Below are positions 37,908-44,653 of a DNA stretch of 63,721 bases, in pieces. Each line of letters begins with the position of its first letter. Positions within the stretch are counted from its first letter, which is position 1. The notes under the pieces were generated by a model. It saw only the letters and a list, made by a program, of their open reading frames with translations. It had not been told where the DNA came from and ran no database searches. The DNA lies in NCBI GenBank assembly GCA_902783885.1, contig CACZSQ010000094.1, positions 1 to 63,721 of the forward strand, written 5' to 3'. A program made the translations under genes and the position numbers. The stretch comes from an uncultured Bacteroidales bacterium (GTDB lineage Bacteria; Bacteroidota; Bacteroidia; Bacteroidales; Bacteroidaceae).

Positions 37908-39236
37908 ATGGCAAATGTAATCAAGTTACGCAAAGGCCTCGACGTGAACCTGAAGGGCAAGGCAAACTTGGAAACAATGCAAACGAAAGTCGAGGGACAG
38001 TTCGCTCTGGTTCCCGATGATTTCTATGGCATGAAACCCAAGGTTGTAGTCAAGGAAGGTGACACCGTCAAGGTCGGGGATGCCTTGTTTGTTGACAAGA
38101 ATCATCCCGAAGTGAAGTTCGTTTCGCCTGTCAGTGGAACCGTGGCTCTCGTGGAGCGCGGTGAACGCCGTAAGGTGATGAGCGTTCGCGTAGATGCCGA
38201 CGGTAAGCAGACAGCTGTCTCTTTCTCAGAGAAGGACCCGCTGAAACTACTTCTTGAAAGCGGCTTGTTCGGTTTCTTCCGCCAGCGTCCCTATGACGTG
38301 GTGGCGAATCCAGAGGACAAGCCCAAGGCAATTTTCATCAGCGCGTTCAACAGTATGCCTTTGGCTGCCGACTTCGAGTATGTCCTAAAGGGACAGGAGA
38401 AGGAGTGGCAGGCTGGCCTCTCACTGCTCAGCAAGATTGCCAAGGTGAACCTCGGCGTCAGCTGCAGTCAGAAGGCTGATGCCCTGACCGGTGCTAAGGA
38501 CTGTACCATCACTTTCTTTGACGGTCCTGCTCCTGCCGGAAACGTTGGCGTGCAAATCAACCATGTGGATCCGATCAACAAGGGTGAGGTCGTCTGGACA
38601 CTCGGTGCAGAGGAGGTTATCTTCATCGGTCGCCTTGTGTTGACGGGTAAAGTGGATTTCACCCGTACCATTGCTGTCGCAGGCTCCGAAGTCAAGGCTC
38701 CCAAGTACGCCAAGATTCTCATTGGACAATCTCTTGCTGCACTCCTTGCAGGTCAGATTGATGAGCAGAAGAGCCTTCGTATTATCAATGGTAATCCTAT
38801 GGTGGGCGTGAAGACTTCGAAGAACGGCTGGCTCGCAGCTCATGCGACCGAAGTTACCGTGATTCCCGAGGGTGACGACGTCTATGAGATGCTCGGTTGG
38901 ATAGCTCCCCGCTTCAAAGAGTTCAGCACCAGTCGCAGCTATTTCAGCTGGCTGCGTCCCAAGAAGGCTGAGTACACACTCGATGCCCGCATCAAAGGTG
39001 GTGAGCGTCACATGATTATGTCCGGCGAGTATGACCGCGTTTTCCCGATGGATATCTATGCAGGCTATCTTGTGAAAGCCATCATCGCTGGCGATATCGA
39101 CCGTCAAGAAGCACTCGGCATCTACGAAGTGGCTCCTGAGGACTTCGCCATTGCTGAGTTCGTGGATAGCTCCAAGCTTGAATTGCAGCGTATAGTGCGT
39201 GAGGGTTTGGATATCCTGCGCAAGGAAAACATGTAA
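37908..39236 (+). CDS. nqrA: Na+-translocating NADH:quinone reductase subunit A
   Basis: 442 residues, the usual size. The start IKLRKGLDVNLKGKA, then PVSGTVALVERGERRKVMSV (lipoyl-like domain) and the C-terminal CAP-like region identify NqrA, the soluble subunit that binds quinone at the cytoplasmic face. It is the first gene of nqrABCDEF. Confidence 0.95.
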   Translation: MANVIKLRKGLDVNLKGKANLETMQTKVEGQFALVPDDFYGMKPKVVVKEGDTVKVGDALFVDKNHPEVKFVSPVSGTVALVERGERRKVMSVRVDADGKQTAVSFSEKDPLKLLLESGLFGFFRQRPYDVVANPEDKPKAIFISAFNSMPLAADFEYVLKGQEKEWQAGLSLLSKIAKVNLGVSCSQKADALTGAKDCTITFFDGPAPAGNVGVQINHVDPINKGEVVWTLGAEEVIFIGRLVLTGKVDFTRTIAVAGSEVKAPKYAKILIGQSLAALLAGQIDEQKSLRIINGNPMVGVKTSKNGWLAAHATEVTVIPEGDDVYEMLGWIAPRFKEFSTSRSYFSWLRPKKAEYTLDARIKGGERHMIMSGEYDRVFPMDIYAGYLVKAIIAGDIDRQEALGIYEVAPEDFAIAEFVDSSKLELQRIVREGLDILRKENM

Positions 39237-39237
39237 T

Positions 39238-39342
39238 CAATTCACAATGCACAATTCAAAATTCATAATTGGCTGCGCGGTGAAAACCCAAACGCCTTCA
39301 AGGCGTACTAATTGTGAATTGTGAATTATGAATTGTGAATTA
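39238..39342. repeat. Word-flanked hairpin element between nqrA and nqrB (copy 1)
   Basis: The left arm (39239-39270), AATTCACAATGCACAATTC and onward, pairs imperfectly with the right arm 39310-39341. The core contains GGCTGCGCGGTGAA and a small hairpin ACGCC-TTCAA-GGCGT. Copy 2 lies at 42441-42556. Confidence 0.85.
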
Positions 39343-39355
39343 AACATCAGTTATT

Positions 39356-40522
39356 ATGAACAGTTTAAGAAAATATTTCGACAAGATAAAGCCGAACTTC
39401 GAGGAGGGTGGTAAGTTGCATGCCTTCCGTTCGCTTTATGATGGCTTCGAGACGTTCGCTTTCGTGCCCAACACTACGGCACGTGTTGGCGGAACACACA
39501 TCCATGATGCCATCGACAGCAAGCGTATCATGTCGCTTGTGGTCATCGCGCTTGTGCCTGCGTTGCTCTTCGGTATGTATAACGTAGGTTATCAGAATGC
39601 GCTCGCTGCCGGTCAACTGGAGAATGCCACTTTCTGGGGGATGTTCTTCTTCGGCTTCCTGGCTGTACTGCCCAAGCTGATTGTCAGCTATGTGGTGGGC
39701 TTGGGCATTGAGTTCACTGTGGCACAGTGGAAGAATGAGGAGATTCAGGAAGGATTCCTCGTCAGTGGTATTATCATCCCGATGATTGTGCCCGTGAACA
39801 CACCGCTGTGGATGCTCGCAATTGCTGTTGCCTTCTCCGTCATCTTCGCCAAGGAGATTTTCGGCGGCACTGGCATGAACATTTTCAACGTAGCCCTTAT
39901 CACGCGCGCGTTCCTTTTTTTCTCTTATCCCTCCAGCATGACAGGTGACGACACTGTATGGGTGGCTCAGAATGCAATCTGGGGCCTGGGCTTCGATGTG
40001 CCCGACACCTTCTCTGCGGCTACACCTTTGGGAGAAATCGCAGCTGGACTCACAGCTCCTACCACGAGTTTCTGCGACCAGGTGATTGGCCTGATTCCCG
40101 GATCTATCGGTGAGACGAGTGTCATAGCCATTGCCCTTGGCGCTTGCTTGCTGCTGTGGACGGGCGTCGCTTCATGGAAGACGATGCTGAGTGTCTTTGT
40201 TGGCGGTGCTCTGACGGGCTGGTGCTACAATGCGTTAGGTCTGTCAACTCTAGACGCCTGCCAGCACATCGTGCTTGGTGGTTTCTGCTTCGGCGCTGTC
40301 TTCATGGCTACCGACCCTGTTACCAGCGCTCGCACGGAGGGTGGTAAGTGGATTTACGGTTTCCTGATTGGCTTCGTCGCTGTGACGGTGCGTGTCCTCA
40401 ACCCCGGTTATCCCGAGGGTATGATGCTTGCCATCCTGCTGATGAACCTCTTCGCACCGCTGATCGACTACTGCTTCGTCAGCCGTAATATCAGTCGTCG
40501 CGCAAAACGTGCAATCAAATAG
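39356..40522 (+). CDS. nqrB: Na+-translocating NADH:quinone reductase subunit B
   Basis: 388 residues with about ten membrane helices. The covalent FMN site is S220-A-A-T223 in DTFSAATPLG; the usual motif is S-G-A-T, so the glycine is replaced by alanine. GGTGMNIFNVALITRAFLFF is a family feature. NqrB forms the sodium path together with RnfD-like folding. The nqrC gene starts 8 bases after the stop. Confidence 0.95.
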   Translation: MNSLRKYFDKIKPNFEEGGKLHAFRSLYDGFETFAFVPNTTARVGGTHIHDAIDSKRIMSLVVIALVPALLFGMYNVGYQNALAAGQLENATFWGMFFFGFLAVLPKLIVSYVVGLGIEFTVAQWKNEEIQEGFLVSGIIIPMIVPVNTPLWMLAIAVAFSVIFAKEIFGGTGMNIFNVALITRAFLFFSYPSSMTGDDTVWVAQNAIWGLGFDVPDTFSAATPLGEIAAGLTAPTTSFCDQVIGLIPGSIGETSVIAIALGACLLLWTGVASWKTMLSVFVGGALTGWCYNALGLSTLDACQHIVLGGFCFGAVFMATDPVTSARTEGGKWIYGFLIGFVAVTVRVLNPGYPEGMMLAILLMNLFAPLIDYCFVSRNISRRAKRAIK

Positions 40523-40530
40523 TTACAGAT

Positions 40531-41703
40531 ATGGCAAAGAAATTTATATGCAGTCAGTGCGGTCAGACGTTCGAAGCCGCATCCATGCCCGACAAGTGCC
40601 CTATCTGCGGCGCTGACACTTCTCATCTCAAAGAAGTGAAATCAAAGGGCATAAACACTAATAGTAATGTATACACCATCTGCTATGCAGCAGTGATGGT
40701 AGTGATTGTTGCTTTCCTGTTGGCCTTCGTCAGCAGTGCTTTGAAGCCTGCTCAGGATGCCAACGTGGCAATTGACAAACGCACACAGATTCTGGCTTCA
40801 CTCAACGTTCGTGGTATTGCCAAGAGCGATGTGGAAGCTAAGTACAATGAATTGATTCAAGAAACATTCGTTCTCACACCCGATGGTCAGAAGATAGACG
40901 GTGCAGATGCCTTCGATGTTGACACGAAGGAGATTGGCGAGAAGTATCCTGTATATATGGCAAAAACCGCTGATGGCGAAGACGCTTATGTGCTGCCTCT
41001 GAAGGGCCGTGGCCTGTGGGGCGGTATCTGGGGCTACGTAGCCGTGACTCCCGATTGCCAGAAGGTGCTTGGTGCTTTCTTCAATCATGAGAGCGAGACC
41101 GCTGGCCTTGGAGCTCTCATTAAAGACGAACCCTTCCAGAGCCAATTCATTGGTCGTCCCGTAATGGGTCAGGATGGCAAGGTCGCTTTGACCGTGGTCA
41201 AACAAGGCGAAAGCAAGGCTGAGACCGAGGTCGATGGTGTCACCGGTGCTACGTTAACCTCTAAAGGTGTTGGCGAGATGCTGCTCAGTGGCATTCAACA
41301 ATATGTTGATGCACTTGGCGGTGGTAAGCCCGCTGGAGGCTGTGGTCGTCAAGAAGGATGTAAGCACGCTGAAAAATGCTGTAACAAAGCAGACTGCACC
41401 TGCGCTCAGAAAAAGCTCTGCGCATGCAAGGATGGCAGCTGCGGCAACGAAGCCTGCAACTGCGCTGACGAAGCTCAATGCTGTGCACGCGAGGAATGCC
41501 CTTGCACCTGCTGCGAGAAGATGACACCCTGTGAGAAGAAGCATGAAGGCTGCGCCAAGGCTCAGCAAGAATGTGGCGGCTGTCCCGAGAAGGATTCATC
41601 ACCCTGCAAGAGTGGCAACGAATGCTGCAAGAGCGGCCAGTGTGACAAAAGCGGTTCCTGTGGGAAGCCCAGTTGCGATGGTGATAAAGCTTGCTGCAAG
41701 TAA
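40531..41703 (+). CDS. nqrC: NqrC fused to an N-terminal rubredoxin-like knuckle and a C-terminal Cys-rich tail
   Basis: 390 residues; typical NqrC proteins have about 220-260. Residues 1-40 form a rubredoxin/zinc-ribbon-like domain: C7-x2-C10-x12-C23-x2-C26 (CSQCG...CPICG), like the C-terminal rubredoxin of rubrerythrin. NqrC proper follows from about 41 (NTNSNVYTICYAAVMVVIV, one membrane helix), with the covalent FMN motif T238-G-A-T241. From about 271 to 390 comes a tail with 29 cysteines in about 120 residues (CC and CxC pairs, many lysines). The start is fixed by the 8-base gap to nqrB. The tail could bind metals or form disulfides on the periplasmic side, where the NqrC FMN domain lies; the N-terminal knuckle would be cytoplasmic. 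Confidence 0.9.
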   Translation: MAKKFICSQCGQTFEAASMPDKCPICGADTSHLKEVKSKGINTNSNVYTICYAAVMVVIVAFLLAFVSSALKPAQDANVAIDKRTQILASLNVRGIAKSDVEAKYNELIQETFVLTPDGQKIDGADAFDVDTKEIGEKYPVYMAKTADGEDAYVLPLKGRGLWGGIWGYVAVTPDCQKVLGAFFNHESETAGLGALIKDEPFQSQFIGRPVMGQDGKVALTVVKQGESKAETEVDGVTGATLTSKGVGEMLLSGIQQYVDALGGGKPAGGCGRQEGCKHAEKCCNKADCTCAQKKLCACKDGSCGNEACNCADEAQCCAREECPCTCCEKMTPCEKKHEGCAKAQQECGGCPEKDSSPCKSGNECCKSGQCDKSGSCGKPSCDGDKACCK

Positions 41704-41707
41704 CTGA

Positions 41708-41735
41708 CCCTAATTAATCATTAATCATTAAAAGA
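41708..41735. repeat. ATTAATC word repeat between nqrC and nqrD
   Basis: Tandem TTAATCATTAATCATTAA lies in the 112-base gap between nqrC and nqrD. No further structure is obvious in the remainder of the gap. Confidence 0.5.
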
Positions 41736-41815
41736 ATGACCCTACAAACCTTCCAGTAGTCACATCAATTCCTCACCCTCCATGACAGAGAGGGACTGAA
41801 GGTGGGTCTCTTATT

Positions 41816-42442
41816 ATGAGTACATTATTTTCTAAAGCAAATAAGGAAGCGCTGATCAATCCGCTGAACCTGAATAACCCCGTGGTGATGCAGGTCCTCG
41901 GTATCTGTTCGGCCTTGGCAGTTACGGCAAAGCTTGAGCCTGCCATCGTGATGGGCCTCTCCGTGACCATCATCACTGCTTTCTCCAACTTAATTATCTC
42001 TCTCCTGCGCAACACAATCCCCAACCGCATCCGAATTATCGTGCAACTGGTCGTTGTGGCTGCATTGGTGACCATTGTCAGTCAGGTCCTCAAGGCTTTC
42101 GCCTACGACGTGAGTGTTCAACTTTCTGTTTATGTGGGTCTAATCATAACCAACTGTATTCTCATGGGACGCCTTGAGGCATTCGCCATGATGAACAAGC
42201 CCTGGCCTTCGTTCCTTGATGGAATAGGTAACGGTATAGGTTATGCTATTATCCTCATCATTGTCGGCTTTTGCCGTGAGCTCCTCGGCTCCGGCACGTT
42301 GCTCAACATCCAGATCGTTCCCGACTGGTGTTATGAGCATGGCTATGTGAACAATGGTATGATGACCATGCCAGCTATGTCTCTCATCATAGTAGGTTGT
42401 GTCATCTGGGCACACAGAGCGTATAACAAAGATTTAGTCTAA
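41816..42442 (+). CDS. nqrD: Na+-translocating NADH:quinone reductase subunit D
   Basis: 208 residues, six membrane helices. C31 (LGICSALAVT) and C114 (IITNCILMGRLEAF) are the two cysteines that, with those of NqrE, hold the intramembrane 2Fe-2S cluster. Length and order are normal. Confidence 0.95.
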   Translation: MSTLFSKANKEALINPLNLNNPVVMQVLGICSALAVTAKLEPAIVMGLSVTIITAFSNLIISLLRNTIPNRIRIIVQLVVVAALVTIVSQVLKAFAYDVSVQLSVYVGLIITNCILMGRLEAFAMMNKPWPSFLDGIGNGIGYAIILIIVGFCRELLGSGTLLNIQIVPDWCYEHGYVNNGMMTMPAMSLIIVGCVIWAHRAYNKDLV

Positions 42443-42556
42443 TTCACAATGCATAATTCAAAATTCATAATTGGCTGCGCGGTGAACTCCCGACGTTTGA
42501 CCTTAAACGCCGGAACGGCGTACTAATTGTGAATTATGAATTGATAATTATGAATT
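42441..42556. repeat. Word-flanked hairpin element between nqrD and nqrE (copy 2)
   Basis: The first 46 bases differ from copy 1 (39239 onward) at a single position. The right arm (42525-42556) is the imperfect reverse complement of the left. The core hairpin is ACGCCG-GAA-CGGCGT, so the stem is conserved while its inner bases have changed on both sides. Confidence 0.85.
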
Positions 42557-42569
42557 AAAACAAAGAATT

Positions 42570-43196
42570 ATGGAACATCTATTAAGCTTATTTGTCCGCT
42601 CCATTTTTGTGGACAATATGATCTTCGCGTTCTTCCTTGGCATGTGCTCTTATCTGGCTGTGTCCAAGACCGTGAAGACTGCCCTCGGGCTCGGCGTGGC
42701 GGTCACCTTTGTGCTGCTCATCACCGTTCCTGTGGATTACCTGTTACAAGTCTATGTCCTTGGCCCGAACTGTCTGGTTGAGGGCGTTGACCTAAGTTTC
42801 CTGTCATTTATCCTCTTCATAGCCGTGATTGCAGCTATCGTGCAGTTGGTGGAGATGATTGTCGAGCGTTTCAGCCCCTCGCTGTATGCCGCCCTCGGTA
42901 TCTTCCTCCCCTTGATAGCTGTGAACTGCGCTATCATGGGTGCCTCGCTATTTATGCAACAGCGCATCACGATGCCAGACACTAACTCCCAGGCCATCAC
43001 AGGTGTTTGGGACGCCGTAGCATACGCCCTCGGTTCCGGTATTGGTTGGCTGCTCGCCATCACTTGCCTGGCTGCCATTCGCGAGAAGATGGCCTACACC
43101 GATGTGCCACGTCCTCTTCAGGGTCTTGGCATCACATTTATTACCGTCGGTCTGATGGCTATGGCCTTCATGTGTTTCAGTGGATTAAATCTCTAA
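42570..43196 (+). CDS. nqrE: Na+-translocating NADH:quinone reductase subunit E
   Basis: 208 residues, six membrane helices. C26 ([10 protein letters not shown]) and C120 ([11 protein letters not shown]) are the cluster cysteines, at the same numbers as in well-studied Nqr[14 protein letters not shown] and [13 protein letters not shown] are family signatures. Confidence 0.95.
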
Positions 43197-43198
43197 AG

Positions 43199-43350
43199 TA
43201 GACAAGTTGACCAGTAGACAAGTAAACCAGTAGACAAGTAAACAAGTTGGTACTATCCCAGACTCGACACTAAGTCAAATAACTCGTCAACTAATAACTC
43301 GTCAACTCGTCAACCAATAACTCGTCAACTCGTCAACTAATAACTCGTCA
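43199..43350. repeat. Word-array element between nqrE and nqrF
   Basis: Left part: tandem AGTAGACAAGTAAACC-type words (43199-43245). Right part: tandem AACTCGTCAACTAAT-type words (43278-43352), roughly their reverse complement in theme. It fills the 167-base gap, the largest in the operon. Confidence 0.8.
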
Positions 43351-43363
43351 ACTAAAAAGAAAA

Positions 43364-44653
43364 ATGAATACATCACTAATCTTAACAAGCATTGTGGTCT
43401 TCCTCGTGATGATTATCGCGTTGGTCATCATTTTGCTTGTCGCAAAGGCTTACCTCTCACCGAGCGGTAATGTCACTATTACAATGAACGGCAAGGACAC
43501 CTTGTCCGTTCCGCAGGGCGCGAGCCTGCTCTCCACCTTGGCTGCTGAGGGGATATATCTTCCCAGTGCCTGCGGTGGCAAGGGCTCTTGCGGCCAGTGC
43601 AAATGTCAAGTTACAGAAGGTGGTGGCGAGATTCTCGATTCTGAGAAGGGTCACTTTACCCGTAAGGAACAGAAGGATCACTGGCGCCTCGGTTGCCAGT
43701 GCAAGGTCAAAGGTGACCTTGGTATCCAAGTGCCCGACAGTGTCCTCGGCGTTAAGGAATGGGAGTGCACCGTCATTGGTAACAAGAACGTGGCTACCTT
43801 TATCAAGGAGTACAAAGTGGCTCTCCCGCCGGGCGAGCACATGGACTTCGAGCCAGGCTCTTATGCCCAGATTCGAATACCCAAATTCGATTGTATCGAC
43901 TATGACAAGGACTTCGACAAGTCCCTCATTGGTGATACATATCTCCCTGCATGGGAGAAGTTCGGTCTGTTCCCGCTCAAGTGTAAGAACCCCGAGGAGA
44001 CTATCCGTGCTTATTCCATGGCTAACTATCCCGATGAAGGCGACATCATCACCCTCAACGTTCGTATCGCTACGCCTCCCTTCAAGCCGAAGGAGCAGGG
44101 TCCAGGCTTCATGGATGTTAACCCTGGTATCGCTTCCAGCTACATTTTCTCACTGAAACCTGGTGACAAGGTTATCATGAGCGGCCCCTATGGCGAATTC
44201 CGTCCTCAGTATGGTACAGGTCGTGAGATGATTTGGGTTGGCGGCGGTGCCGGTATGGCTCCCCTGCGTGCTCAGATTATGCACATGCTCAAAGGCCACG
44301 GAGTCAAGGATGAGGACCGTAAGCGCCCGATGCATTATTTCTATGGTGCGCGTGCACTTGAGGAGATTCCCTTCCTCGATGACTTCCTGCAGTTGGAAAA
44401 AGACTTCCCCAACTTCCACTTCCACCTCGCTCTCGACCGTCCCGATCCCAAGGCAGATGCGGCCGGTATCAAATACACACCGGGCTTCGTTGCTCCAGTG
44501 ATGGGTGACACCTACCTTAAGGCTCACGAGGCTCCCGAGGATTGTGAGTACTACCTCTGCGGTCCCCCAATGATGGCCAAGACTGTCCTCGACCTCTTGC
44601 ATTCGCTCGGCGTTGAAGATGATATGATTCGCTTTGATAACTTTGGCGGTTAG
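43364..44653 (+). CDS. nqrF: Na+-translocating NADH:quinone reductase subunit F
   Basis: 429 residues. An N-terminal membrane anchor (about 5-28) is followed by a 2Fe-2S ferredoxin domain with C70, C76, C79 and C111. A flavin-binding domain (RAYSMANYP) and an NADH-binding domain (GGGAGMAPLRAQI; CGPPMM) complete it. It accepts electrons from NADH and feeds the pump. It is the last nqr gene and is followed by a strong terminator. Confidence 0.96.
   Translation: MNTSLILTSIVVFLVMIIALVIILLVAKAYLSPSGNVTITMNGKDTLSVPQGASLLSTLAAEGIYLPSACGGKGSCGQCKCQVTEGGGEILDSEKGHFTRKEQKDHWRLGCQCKVKGDLGIQVPDSVLGVKEWECTVIGNKNVATFIKEYKVALPPGEHMDFEPGSYAQIRIPKFDCIDYDKDFDKSLIGDTYLPAWEKFGLFPLKCKNPEETIRAYSMANYPDEGDIITLNVRIATPPFKPKEQGPGFMDVNPGIASSYIFSLKPGDKVIMSGPYGEFRPQYGTGREMIWVGGGAGMAPLRAQIMHMLKGHGVKDEDRKRPMHYFYGARALEEIPFLDDFLQLEKDFPNFHFHLALDRPDPKADAAGIKYTPGFVAPVMGDTYLKAHEAPEDCEYYLCGPPMMAKTVLDLLHSLGVEDDMIRFDNFGG

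Follow-up and report, generated by a model that had tools for sequence, protein, structure and literature searches.

The nqr operon and its elongated NqrC

The window, i.e. the whole 63,721-nucleotide stretch of DNA from an uncultured Bacteroidales bacterium that was analysed, contains a complete nqrABCDEF operon at positions 37908-44653 of the + strand. All six subunits exceed the cut-offs set in their respective TIGRFAM-type NCBIfam models:

37908..39236, + strand: nqrA (NCBIfam nqrA TIGR01936, 457 bits; cut-off 321)
39356..40522, + strand: nqrB (NCBIfam nqrB TIGR01937, 449 bits; cut-off 350)
40531..41703, + strand: nqrC, 390 residues, with an N-terminal rubredoxin-like domain and a C-terminal Cys-rich tail (NCBIfam nqrC TIGR01938, 174 bits; cut-off 144; FMN_bind PF04205; AF2 model and Foldseek match to 3lwx)
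41816..42442, + strand: nqrD (TIGR01939, 299 bits; cut-off 245)
42570..43196, + strand: nqrE (TIGR01940, 289 bits; cut-off 248)
43364..44653, + strand: nqrF (TIGR01941, 529 bits; cut-off 295)

The nqrC frame (40531-41703, + strand) is open and begins 8 bases past the nqrB stop at 40522. Its product contains 35 cysteines, namely C7, C10, C23, C26, C51, and C176 together with 29 within residues 271-389. The FMN_bind profile PF04205 matches with 56.5 bits (cut-off 22), while the narrower PRK05346 NqrC models stay below their own cut-offs (e.g. 234 versus 352 bits). The best NqrC profile, NCBIfam PRK05346.2-1, aligns to residues 41-260 only, and the NTNSN stretch begins at residue 42. Residues 1-40 and 268-390 thus lie outside the region covered by the normal family and constitute additions to it. 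The core itself shows two predicted hallmarks of NqrC:

40666..40800, + strand: helix 46-90, predicted as the single transmembrane helix and its continuation (AF2 model; NqrC topology after the available part of PMC12174285)
41242..41253, + strand: T238-G-A-T241, predicted covalent-FMN motif (Thr241), with G239 and T241 invariant in 50 sequences

In Foldseek, the AF2 model matches Parabacteroides distasonis NqrC (3lwx) with 42% identity and a probability of 1.00. An ApbE gene is present elsewhere in the window's genome. The description from which we started, an otherwise normal NqrC that begins 8 bases past nqrB and carries TGAT at residues 238-241, is borne out by the reading frame, the TIGR01938 score, and the position of the motif.

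Three gaps in the operon (39238-39341, 42440-42557, and 43196-43355) contain 7-8-bp tandem repeats in two roughly reverse-complementary arms. The arms at 39239-39270 and 39310-39341 are 32 nt long and 88% complementary, and similar repeat runs precede nqrC in the relatives L022 and L023. The repeats are possible hairpins or mobile repeat elements.

Both additions are genuine and recur in relatives

Ten other genomes of the genus align to NqrC residues 1-389 without a break at 79-85% identity, and named rumen MAGs likewise align to residues 1-389 in one piece. A frame error or a chimeric assembly as the source of either end is therefore excluded, since both ends recur in many independent genomes. 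The earlier note had reported both extensions and knew of no described NqrC that combines them. The homologue search confirms that both are real, the two ends being maintained in relatives. The combination is not unique to the window: a rubredoxin domain together with at least 6 tail cysteines occurs in 34 of the 118 classifiable NqrC of the genus.

These counts derive from 122 nqrC loci, one per genome, found among 139 genomes searched. The counts exclude four loci, namely L174, L177, and L184, which are truncated by contig ends, and L095 (G111:C1:112000-116000). The latter contains a frameshift near residue 208, within the FMN domain, reflecting either a MAG error or decay. The rubredoxin domain is found in 73 of the 118 classifiable loci and is absent from 45; 24 of the 118 combine it with at least 15 tail cysteines. 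In the clade of the window (clade A), all 33 members carry a Cys tail (7-45 Cys) and 23 carry the rubredoxin domain. The tail thus occurs without the knuckle in 10 of 33 members, and the two additions vary separately. Outside this clade, tails with at least 6 Cys are present in 22 of 85 loci. Some of these Cys-rich tails are clearly different in sequence, e.g. KKCADCTKECKDG or repeats of GMHEGCPKAEG.

Beyond the genus, the fusion is seen in translated loci from nine further genera of this family (g6, g7, g8, g9, g20, g21, g22, g24, and g29), and it is absent from the translated loci of g3 and g19. In one set of 20 loci of the family, picked for long frames or fusion-type matches, 18 carry the fusion. 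Among 27 loci from other families of the order, 3 carry it (L218, L220, and L221), representing three further Bacteroidales families; this sample was restricted to the best-scoring loci, which favours fusions. No fusion was detected in 147 further genomes of the phylum, taken irrespective of whether they possess NQR (75-aa query, E 1e-12).

The N-terminal domain is of the rubrerythrin type

The first addition corresponds to the following feature:

40531..40638, + strand: rubrerythrin-type rubredoxin-like domain, residues 1-36, C7-x2-C10-x12-C23-x2-C26 (Pfam PF21349, RUBY_RBDX; invariant residues; Foldseek match to 1ryt)

The whole-protein Pfam scan did not report this domain. Excised residues 1-41, in contrast, match RUBY_RBDX (PF21349) with 39.0 bits (cut-off 26.5), and among the best 25 of 50 families it is the only one above its own cut-off. 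Zn_ribbon_8 reaches 23.8 bits and stays under its cut-off of 34.4. The classical rubredoxin family PF00301 does not appear for the window domain among the best 25 of 50 families, and in the domains of two relatives it scores below its cut-off of 23 (17.2 and 16.7 bits). Scores against the classical rubredoxin models of NCBIfam also stay below the cut-offs (NF045768, 14.6 versus 90; NF045720, 31.3 versus 45). Against RUBY_RBDX, 46-56 bits are reached by the corresponding domains of three relatives and by that of a rubrerythrin-family protein encoded in the window's genome.

Across 27 NqrC rubredoxins, K4, C7, C10, G11, P20, C23, P24, and C26 are invariant. The window clade carries Gln after CxxCG, where classical rubredoxin domains have Tyr, whereas relatives retain the classical CGYxHEG. 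AlphaFold models residues 1-30 with block means of pLDDT 91-97, followed by helix 46-90. A structure search with the model of the domain alone ranks rubrerythrin 1ryt (probability 1.00, E 0.005) and rubredoxins first, no match reaching an E-value as low as 0.001. A PDB sequence search with the domain returned mostly short zinc-finger and rubredoxin matches. Hence, what had been called a rubredoxin-like knuckle is confirmed and can be specified as the RUBY_RBDX type rather than a generic knuckle. The metal may be Fe or Zn, between which the sequence does not discriminate.

The window's genome contains three RUBY_RBDX matches. Two are listed at C80 and C21, and the third is presumably NqrC itself. 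The protein at C80 is a rubrerythrin-family protein whose N-terminus is 43% identical to the NqrC domain. In genus g9 of the family, locus L277 (G228:C18:14200-16200) encodes an NqrC (385-aa frame) in which three rubredoxin domains in tandem precede the membrane helix.

The rubredoxin segment changes state many times along the tree

We followed the presence of the domain on a tree of nqrB and the NqrC core (162 rows, quick LG+G4, long outgroup branches). The rubredoxin state changes at least 29 times, partly on weak branches, and 22 independent presence/absence pairs lie on well-supported branches. The tail state (at least 6 Cys) changes at least 15 times. For an association between knuckle and tail, the informative independent pairs are too few to indicate a link either way. 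Placing all rubredoxin-bearing rows in one group is rejected within three clades: in clade D (p-AU 1e-4 for 12 versus 15 rows, at least 9 changes; 12 of 13 rubredoxin-bearing rows, the short L100 being left out), in clade B (5 versus 7 rows, p-AU 1e-101, at least 4 changes), and in the window clade A (22 versus 10 rows, p-AU 1e-14, at least 6 changes; 22 of 23 rows, L005 being left out).

At the DNA level, the domain is delimited as a short segment:

40525..40658, + strand: rubredoxin cassette comprising six leader bases, the start codon, and about 43 codons (DNA search of genus genomes; junction listing)

Other species align to this segment over 125-134 bases at 81-92% identity. A 136-bp cassette query gives one match each in 54 of 139 genus genomes, always in nqrC (six of them shorter or weaker). 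Most matches stop near residue 43, and none outside the window's own genome exceeds 92% identity. No donor copy elsewhere in the genome was found with this query among the 139 genomes.

The junctions are characteristic. In a listing that covers part of each clade, the leader ACAGAT and the start ATGGCAAAGAAATTTATATGC are common to all 24 rows from B, C, and D that carry the fusion. Of the fusion-bearing rows of clade A, 19 of 23 are listed; 12 of the 19 have the leader ACAGAT and the remaining seven another one. The fusion-free rows of B and D carry a GGAGG leader and the start ATGAAA or ATGAAG in 20 of 20 listed cases, and those of A start with ATGGC(A/T)AAG, without GGAGG.

Silent sites point in the same direction. 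Between clades A-D, silent-site identity in the middle of nqrB and in the NqrC core amounts to 0.44-0.50 versus 0.40-0.42 expected, i.e. it is near saturation, while the rubredoxin segment shows 0.69-0.86 versus 0.48-0.50 expected. None of the 182 other 34-codon segments of nqrB and nqrC, which overlap one another, shows as large an excess in any of the six clade comparisons, although the margin is narrow for A-D and for C-D. Elevated identity is also seen at the ends of nqrB in some cases, with 0.64 for the first 34 codons between A and B and 0.69 for the last 34 between C and D. No excess at the same codons is seen in the controls A versus Y and A versus Q2, which involve other rubredoxin types. 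Members of clade D show a silent identity of 0.96 in the rubredoxin segment versus 0.64 in the core; within the control groups Y and Q2, the segment lies modestly above the core. The silent-site excess between clades A-D suggests that the rubredoxin probably spread as a cassette of about 120 bp through homologous recombination, with losses as the counterpart of these gains. Allele-specific constraint at the RNA level could account for part of the silent-site conservation and is the remaining alternative.

Genomes lacking the cassette contain on average 1.98 other RUBY_RBDX proteins (45 genomes), compared to 1.74 besides NqrC in those with it (74 genomes, including the frameshifted L095; p 0.035, relatedness ignored). 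The other RUBY_RBDX proteins evidently do without the cassette, as genomes lacking it hold just as many. There is no clear sign that another rubredoxin gene takes the place of a lost cassette, the genomes without it being only slightly richer in such proteins. A missing RNF complex as the reason for the fusion is not supported either, because the window's genome has an RnfB-like gene (63.7 bits, just under the cut-off of 68.7; G000:C28:7931-8935, L300:3432-4436, near the contig end); RnfB matches occur in 123 of 139 genomes. The gene is preceded by a small ORF (L300:2987-3406) that looks RseC-like. In the 85% complete genome of the window, the RnfG profile detects NqrC only, and the rnfB contig stops just past rnfB.

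The Cys-rich tail is under purifying selection

The second addition consists of the following elements:

41332..41700, + strand: tail rich in Cys (29 in residues 268-390) and free of F, W, and Y (composition; pN/pS 0.32, Cys conservation)
41377..41520, + strand: residues 283-330, first conserved tail block (from the consensus of 32 tails of the window clade)
41605..41700, + strand: residues 359-390, last conserved tail block, retained by 28 of the 33 members of the clade (from the same consensus)

Cysteines make up 29 of the 123 tail residues (24%), as the earlier note had counted, with many CxC and CC pairs. The probability of at least 29 Cys in 123 residues is 5e-31 at a Cys frequency of 1% and 2e-12 at 5%. 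AlphaFold assigns most of the tail a pLDDT below 50. Between the two conserved blocks, the middle is repeat-like and variable in length, with short units such as KAEGC and HEGC, and tails of a few relatives contain one to three aromatic residues. No family in Pfam or NCBIfam matches the tail at E-values up to 10, a metallothionein profile included. No other gene was found to share the tail: matches at E 1e-5 occur in 31 of the 139 genomes of the genus, always at nqrC. The sole other match in the window's own genome is weak (E 0.008), and the frames with more than 8 Cys there are a CoA-ligase-like protein and an antisense frame.

The tail is under purifying selection. Among 32 of the 33 clade tails (L005 being left out), the median pN/pS is 0.32 compared to 0.15 in the core, and the ratio is below 1 in 479 of 481 pairs. 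Moreover, Cys columns are conserved to 97% on average versus 74% for the other columns (p 1.5e-10). The tail is thus real and maintained, some form of Cys tail being present throughout the window clade. Irrespective of the rest of the tail, many NqrC of the genus, among them several of L119-L143, share an acidic C-terminal motif (TDVEQ, TNVEQ, or EDVKQ).

Proposed function of the two additions

We tentatively propose, as a reading whose probability we place slightly below even, that the window encodes an NqrC with a cytosolic rubredoxin electron side port, borne by a recombining cassette, and with a periplasmic tail that binds soft metals. The topology of the window protein we infer from other NqrC. 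NqrC has one N-terminal transmembrane helix and a large extracellular or periplasmic FMN domain, as described in the available part of PMC12174285; the rubredoxin should therefore be cytosolic and the tail periplasmic.

The rubredoxin domain would accordingly sit in the cytoplasm ahead of the single membrane helix. There, it might take electrons from the nearby ferredoxin domain of NqrF (NADH to FAD to 2Fe-2S) and pass them on to soluble acceptors, e.g. the rubrerythrins of the cell, so that NADH oxidized at the pump would also become usable against peroxide or O2. According to the accessible text of PMC10739449, the ferredoxin-like domain of NqrF is cytosolic and lies near or remote from the membrane depending on the state. 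Being on this side, it could reduce a tethered rubredoxin. In Bacteroides thetaiotaomicron, the electrons that flow through rubredoxin stem in part, though not exclusively, from NADH:rubredoxin oxidoreductase (PMC5210497, in the portion available). The location of NqrF, the rubrerythrin-family protein of the genome, and the non-exclusive role of this oxidoreductase in B. thetaiotaomicron are our reasons for proposing a side port to rubrerythrin-type acceptors.

The cassette would represent an optional 5' piece of nqrC that is exchanged between species by recombination. If so, whether it is of advantage probably varies with the niche. Its frequent absence, which indicates that it is dispensable, and the equally numerous other RUBY_RBDX proteins of genomes without it count against the proposed port. 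The tail, beyond the FMN domain, would be an unstructured, metallothionein-like segment in the periplasm that may bind soft metal ions and keep them off the metal-sensitive pump. We propose soft-metal binding because the NQR of Prevotella bryantii is sensitive to silver, being half-inhibited near 0.75 uM Ag+ in the accessible part of PMC6560451. That the tail matches no Pfam or NCBIfam family speaks against this proposal.

An alternative reading takes the N-terminal domain for a zinc knuckle or a redox-sensing lid with a part in regulating or stabilizing the complex, e.g. through NqrF docking or through O2 sensing by metal loss, and with none in electron transfer. We regard it as somewhat unlikely. 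It gains from the weak scores of the window-clade domain against zinc-ribbon families such as Zn_ribbon_8, from the loss of Tyr after CxxCG in this clade, and from the 45 of 118 otherwise normal NqrC of the genus that lack the domain. The low RUBY_RBDX score of the window clade (39 bits, compared to 46-56 bits in relatives) and the Gln in place of Tyr likewise speak against a side port. Set against the knuckle are RUBY_RBDX as the only family above its cut-off among the best 25 of 50, rubrerythrin and rubredoxins at the head of the structure search, the classical CGYxHEG of relatives, and the three tandem domains of L277, a triplication that suits electron handling better than a purely structural knuckle. 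As to the history of the segment, an ancestral cassette lost many times, whose silent-site similarity reflects RNA or codon selection at that position and no horizontal exchange, appears decidedly unlikely to us. Fusions in other genera and families would accord with an early origin, a cassette is easily lost, and the segment is somewhat above the core at silent sites even within the control groups Y and Q2. Yet its excess over all 182 overlapping comparison segments in all six comparisons among clades A, B, C, and D, narrow in the pairs A-D and C-D, has no counterpart in A versus Y or A versus Q2. Further, clades B, C, D, and part of A share leader and start where fusion-free sisters have another leader, and the contrast within clade D (0.96 versus 0.64) also counts against this explanation.

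Two other explanations concern the tail. That it serves disulphide cross-linking to the envelope or thiol redox contact with extracellular electron acceptors, rather than metal buffering, we judge unlikely. Its place beyond an FMN domain that is periplasmic in described NqrC (PMC12174285, available part) and its many CxC and CC pairs would suit such a role, whereas the lack of aromatic residues at 24% Cys gives it, by general knowledge, a metallothionein-like character. Disulphides are also disfavoured in a strictly anaerobic periplasm. A functionless tail, arisen as a neutral by-product of repeat expansion, we consider highly improbable. The variable middle with its KAEGC or HEGC repeats, the range from 7 to 45 Cys, the absence of the last conserved block from 5 of 33 clade members, and the in-frame stops in G137 and G077 where these genomes align with the window tail would fit this explanation. 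It is at odds with pN/pS values below 1 in nearly all pairs, with the far stronger conservation of the Cys columns, with a Cys tail of some kind in 33 of 33 clade members, and with the Cys-rich tails of different sequence that other branches carry on the same subunit.

The preferred reading, a rubredoxin side port combined with a soft-metal-binding tail, may be extended to a branched electron hub. Here, an exchangeable cytosolic port would deliver NADH electrons to rubrerythrin-type reduction of peroxide or O2, a periplasmic metal-thiolate tail would protect or extend the pump, and a cassette smaller than a gene would recombine among rumen species, being gained or lost with exposure to oxygen or metals. 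This wider picture we put forward as doubtful. In the available parts of PMC12174285 and PMC10739449, NQR is portrayed as a pump of six subunits along which electrons follow a single route. If the proposal is correct, a rubredoxin on the cytosolic face of NQR would provide a second electron exit, which could link sodium-motive metabolism to oxygen defence, in an arrangement that occurs on NqrC in many Bacteroidales and is tripled in one. The tail would then be an unusual metallothionein-like guard built into a respiratory pump. As close sister species differ by the presence of the cassette in the same operon, its function is testable as a natural experiment.

Comparison with known systems

In line with the earlier note, which knew of no such protein, literature searches gave no description of an NqrC with both additions. 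The literature searched, to which most subscription journals do not belong, yielded no description of a rubredoxin fusion of NqrC or Na+-NQR (the one paper listed being on Clostridium ultunense) or of an NqrC with a cysteine-rich C-terminal tail. The parts are of known kinds; within the scope of these searches, no earlier account exists of their being fused to an ion pump or of the segment behaving as a cassette.

In its core, the protein resembles NqrC of the Na+-NQR of Parabacteroides distasonis (3lwx), Vibrio cholerae (8a1t), and Prevotella bryantii with respect to the operon, the transmembrane helix, the FMN domain, and the TGAT threonine. It differs in length, comprising 390 residues compared to 210 in P. 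bryantii (PMC6560451, in the part available), which leaves no room there for either addition.

The N-terminal domain shares C-x2-C-x12-C-x2-C, a score above the cut-off, and the best fold match with the rubredoxin-like domain of rubrerythrins (PF21349). There, it is joined to a ferritin-like domain, here to a membrane ion pump, and the window clade has Gln for Tyr after CxxCG. The job we propose for it would be that of the chains of NADH:rubredoxin oxidoreductase, rubredoxin, and Roo or rubrerythrin in anaerobes, i.e. to transfer NADH electrons via rubredoxin to peroxide- or O2-reducing proteins. In contrast to the Roo chain, in which the accessible text of PMC5210497 describes a soluble enzyme and a soluble rubredoxin-dependent chain, the rubredoxin is here fused to a Na+ pump.

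Metallothioneins are rich in Cys and devoid of aromatic residues. With those of bacteria, the tail has in common its 24% Cys, the CxC and CC pairs, the absence of aromatics, and a conserved Cys pattern, and it is predicted to be unstructured. It departs from them in matching no family, in its variable length, and in its attachment to a membrane protein, on which it would be expected to face the periplasm.
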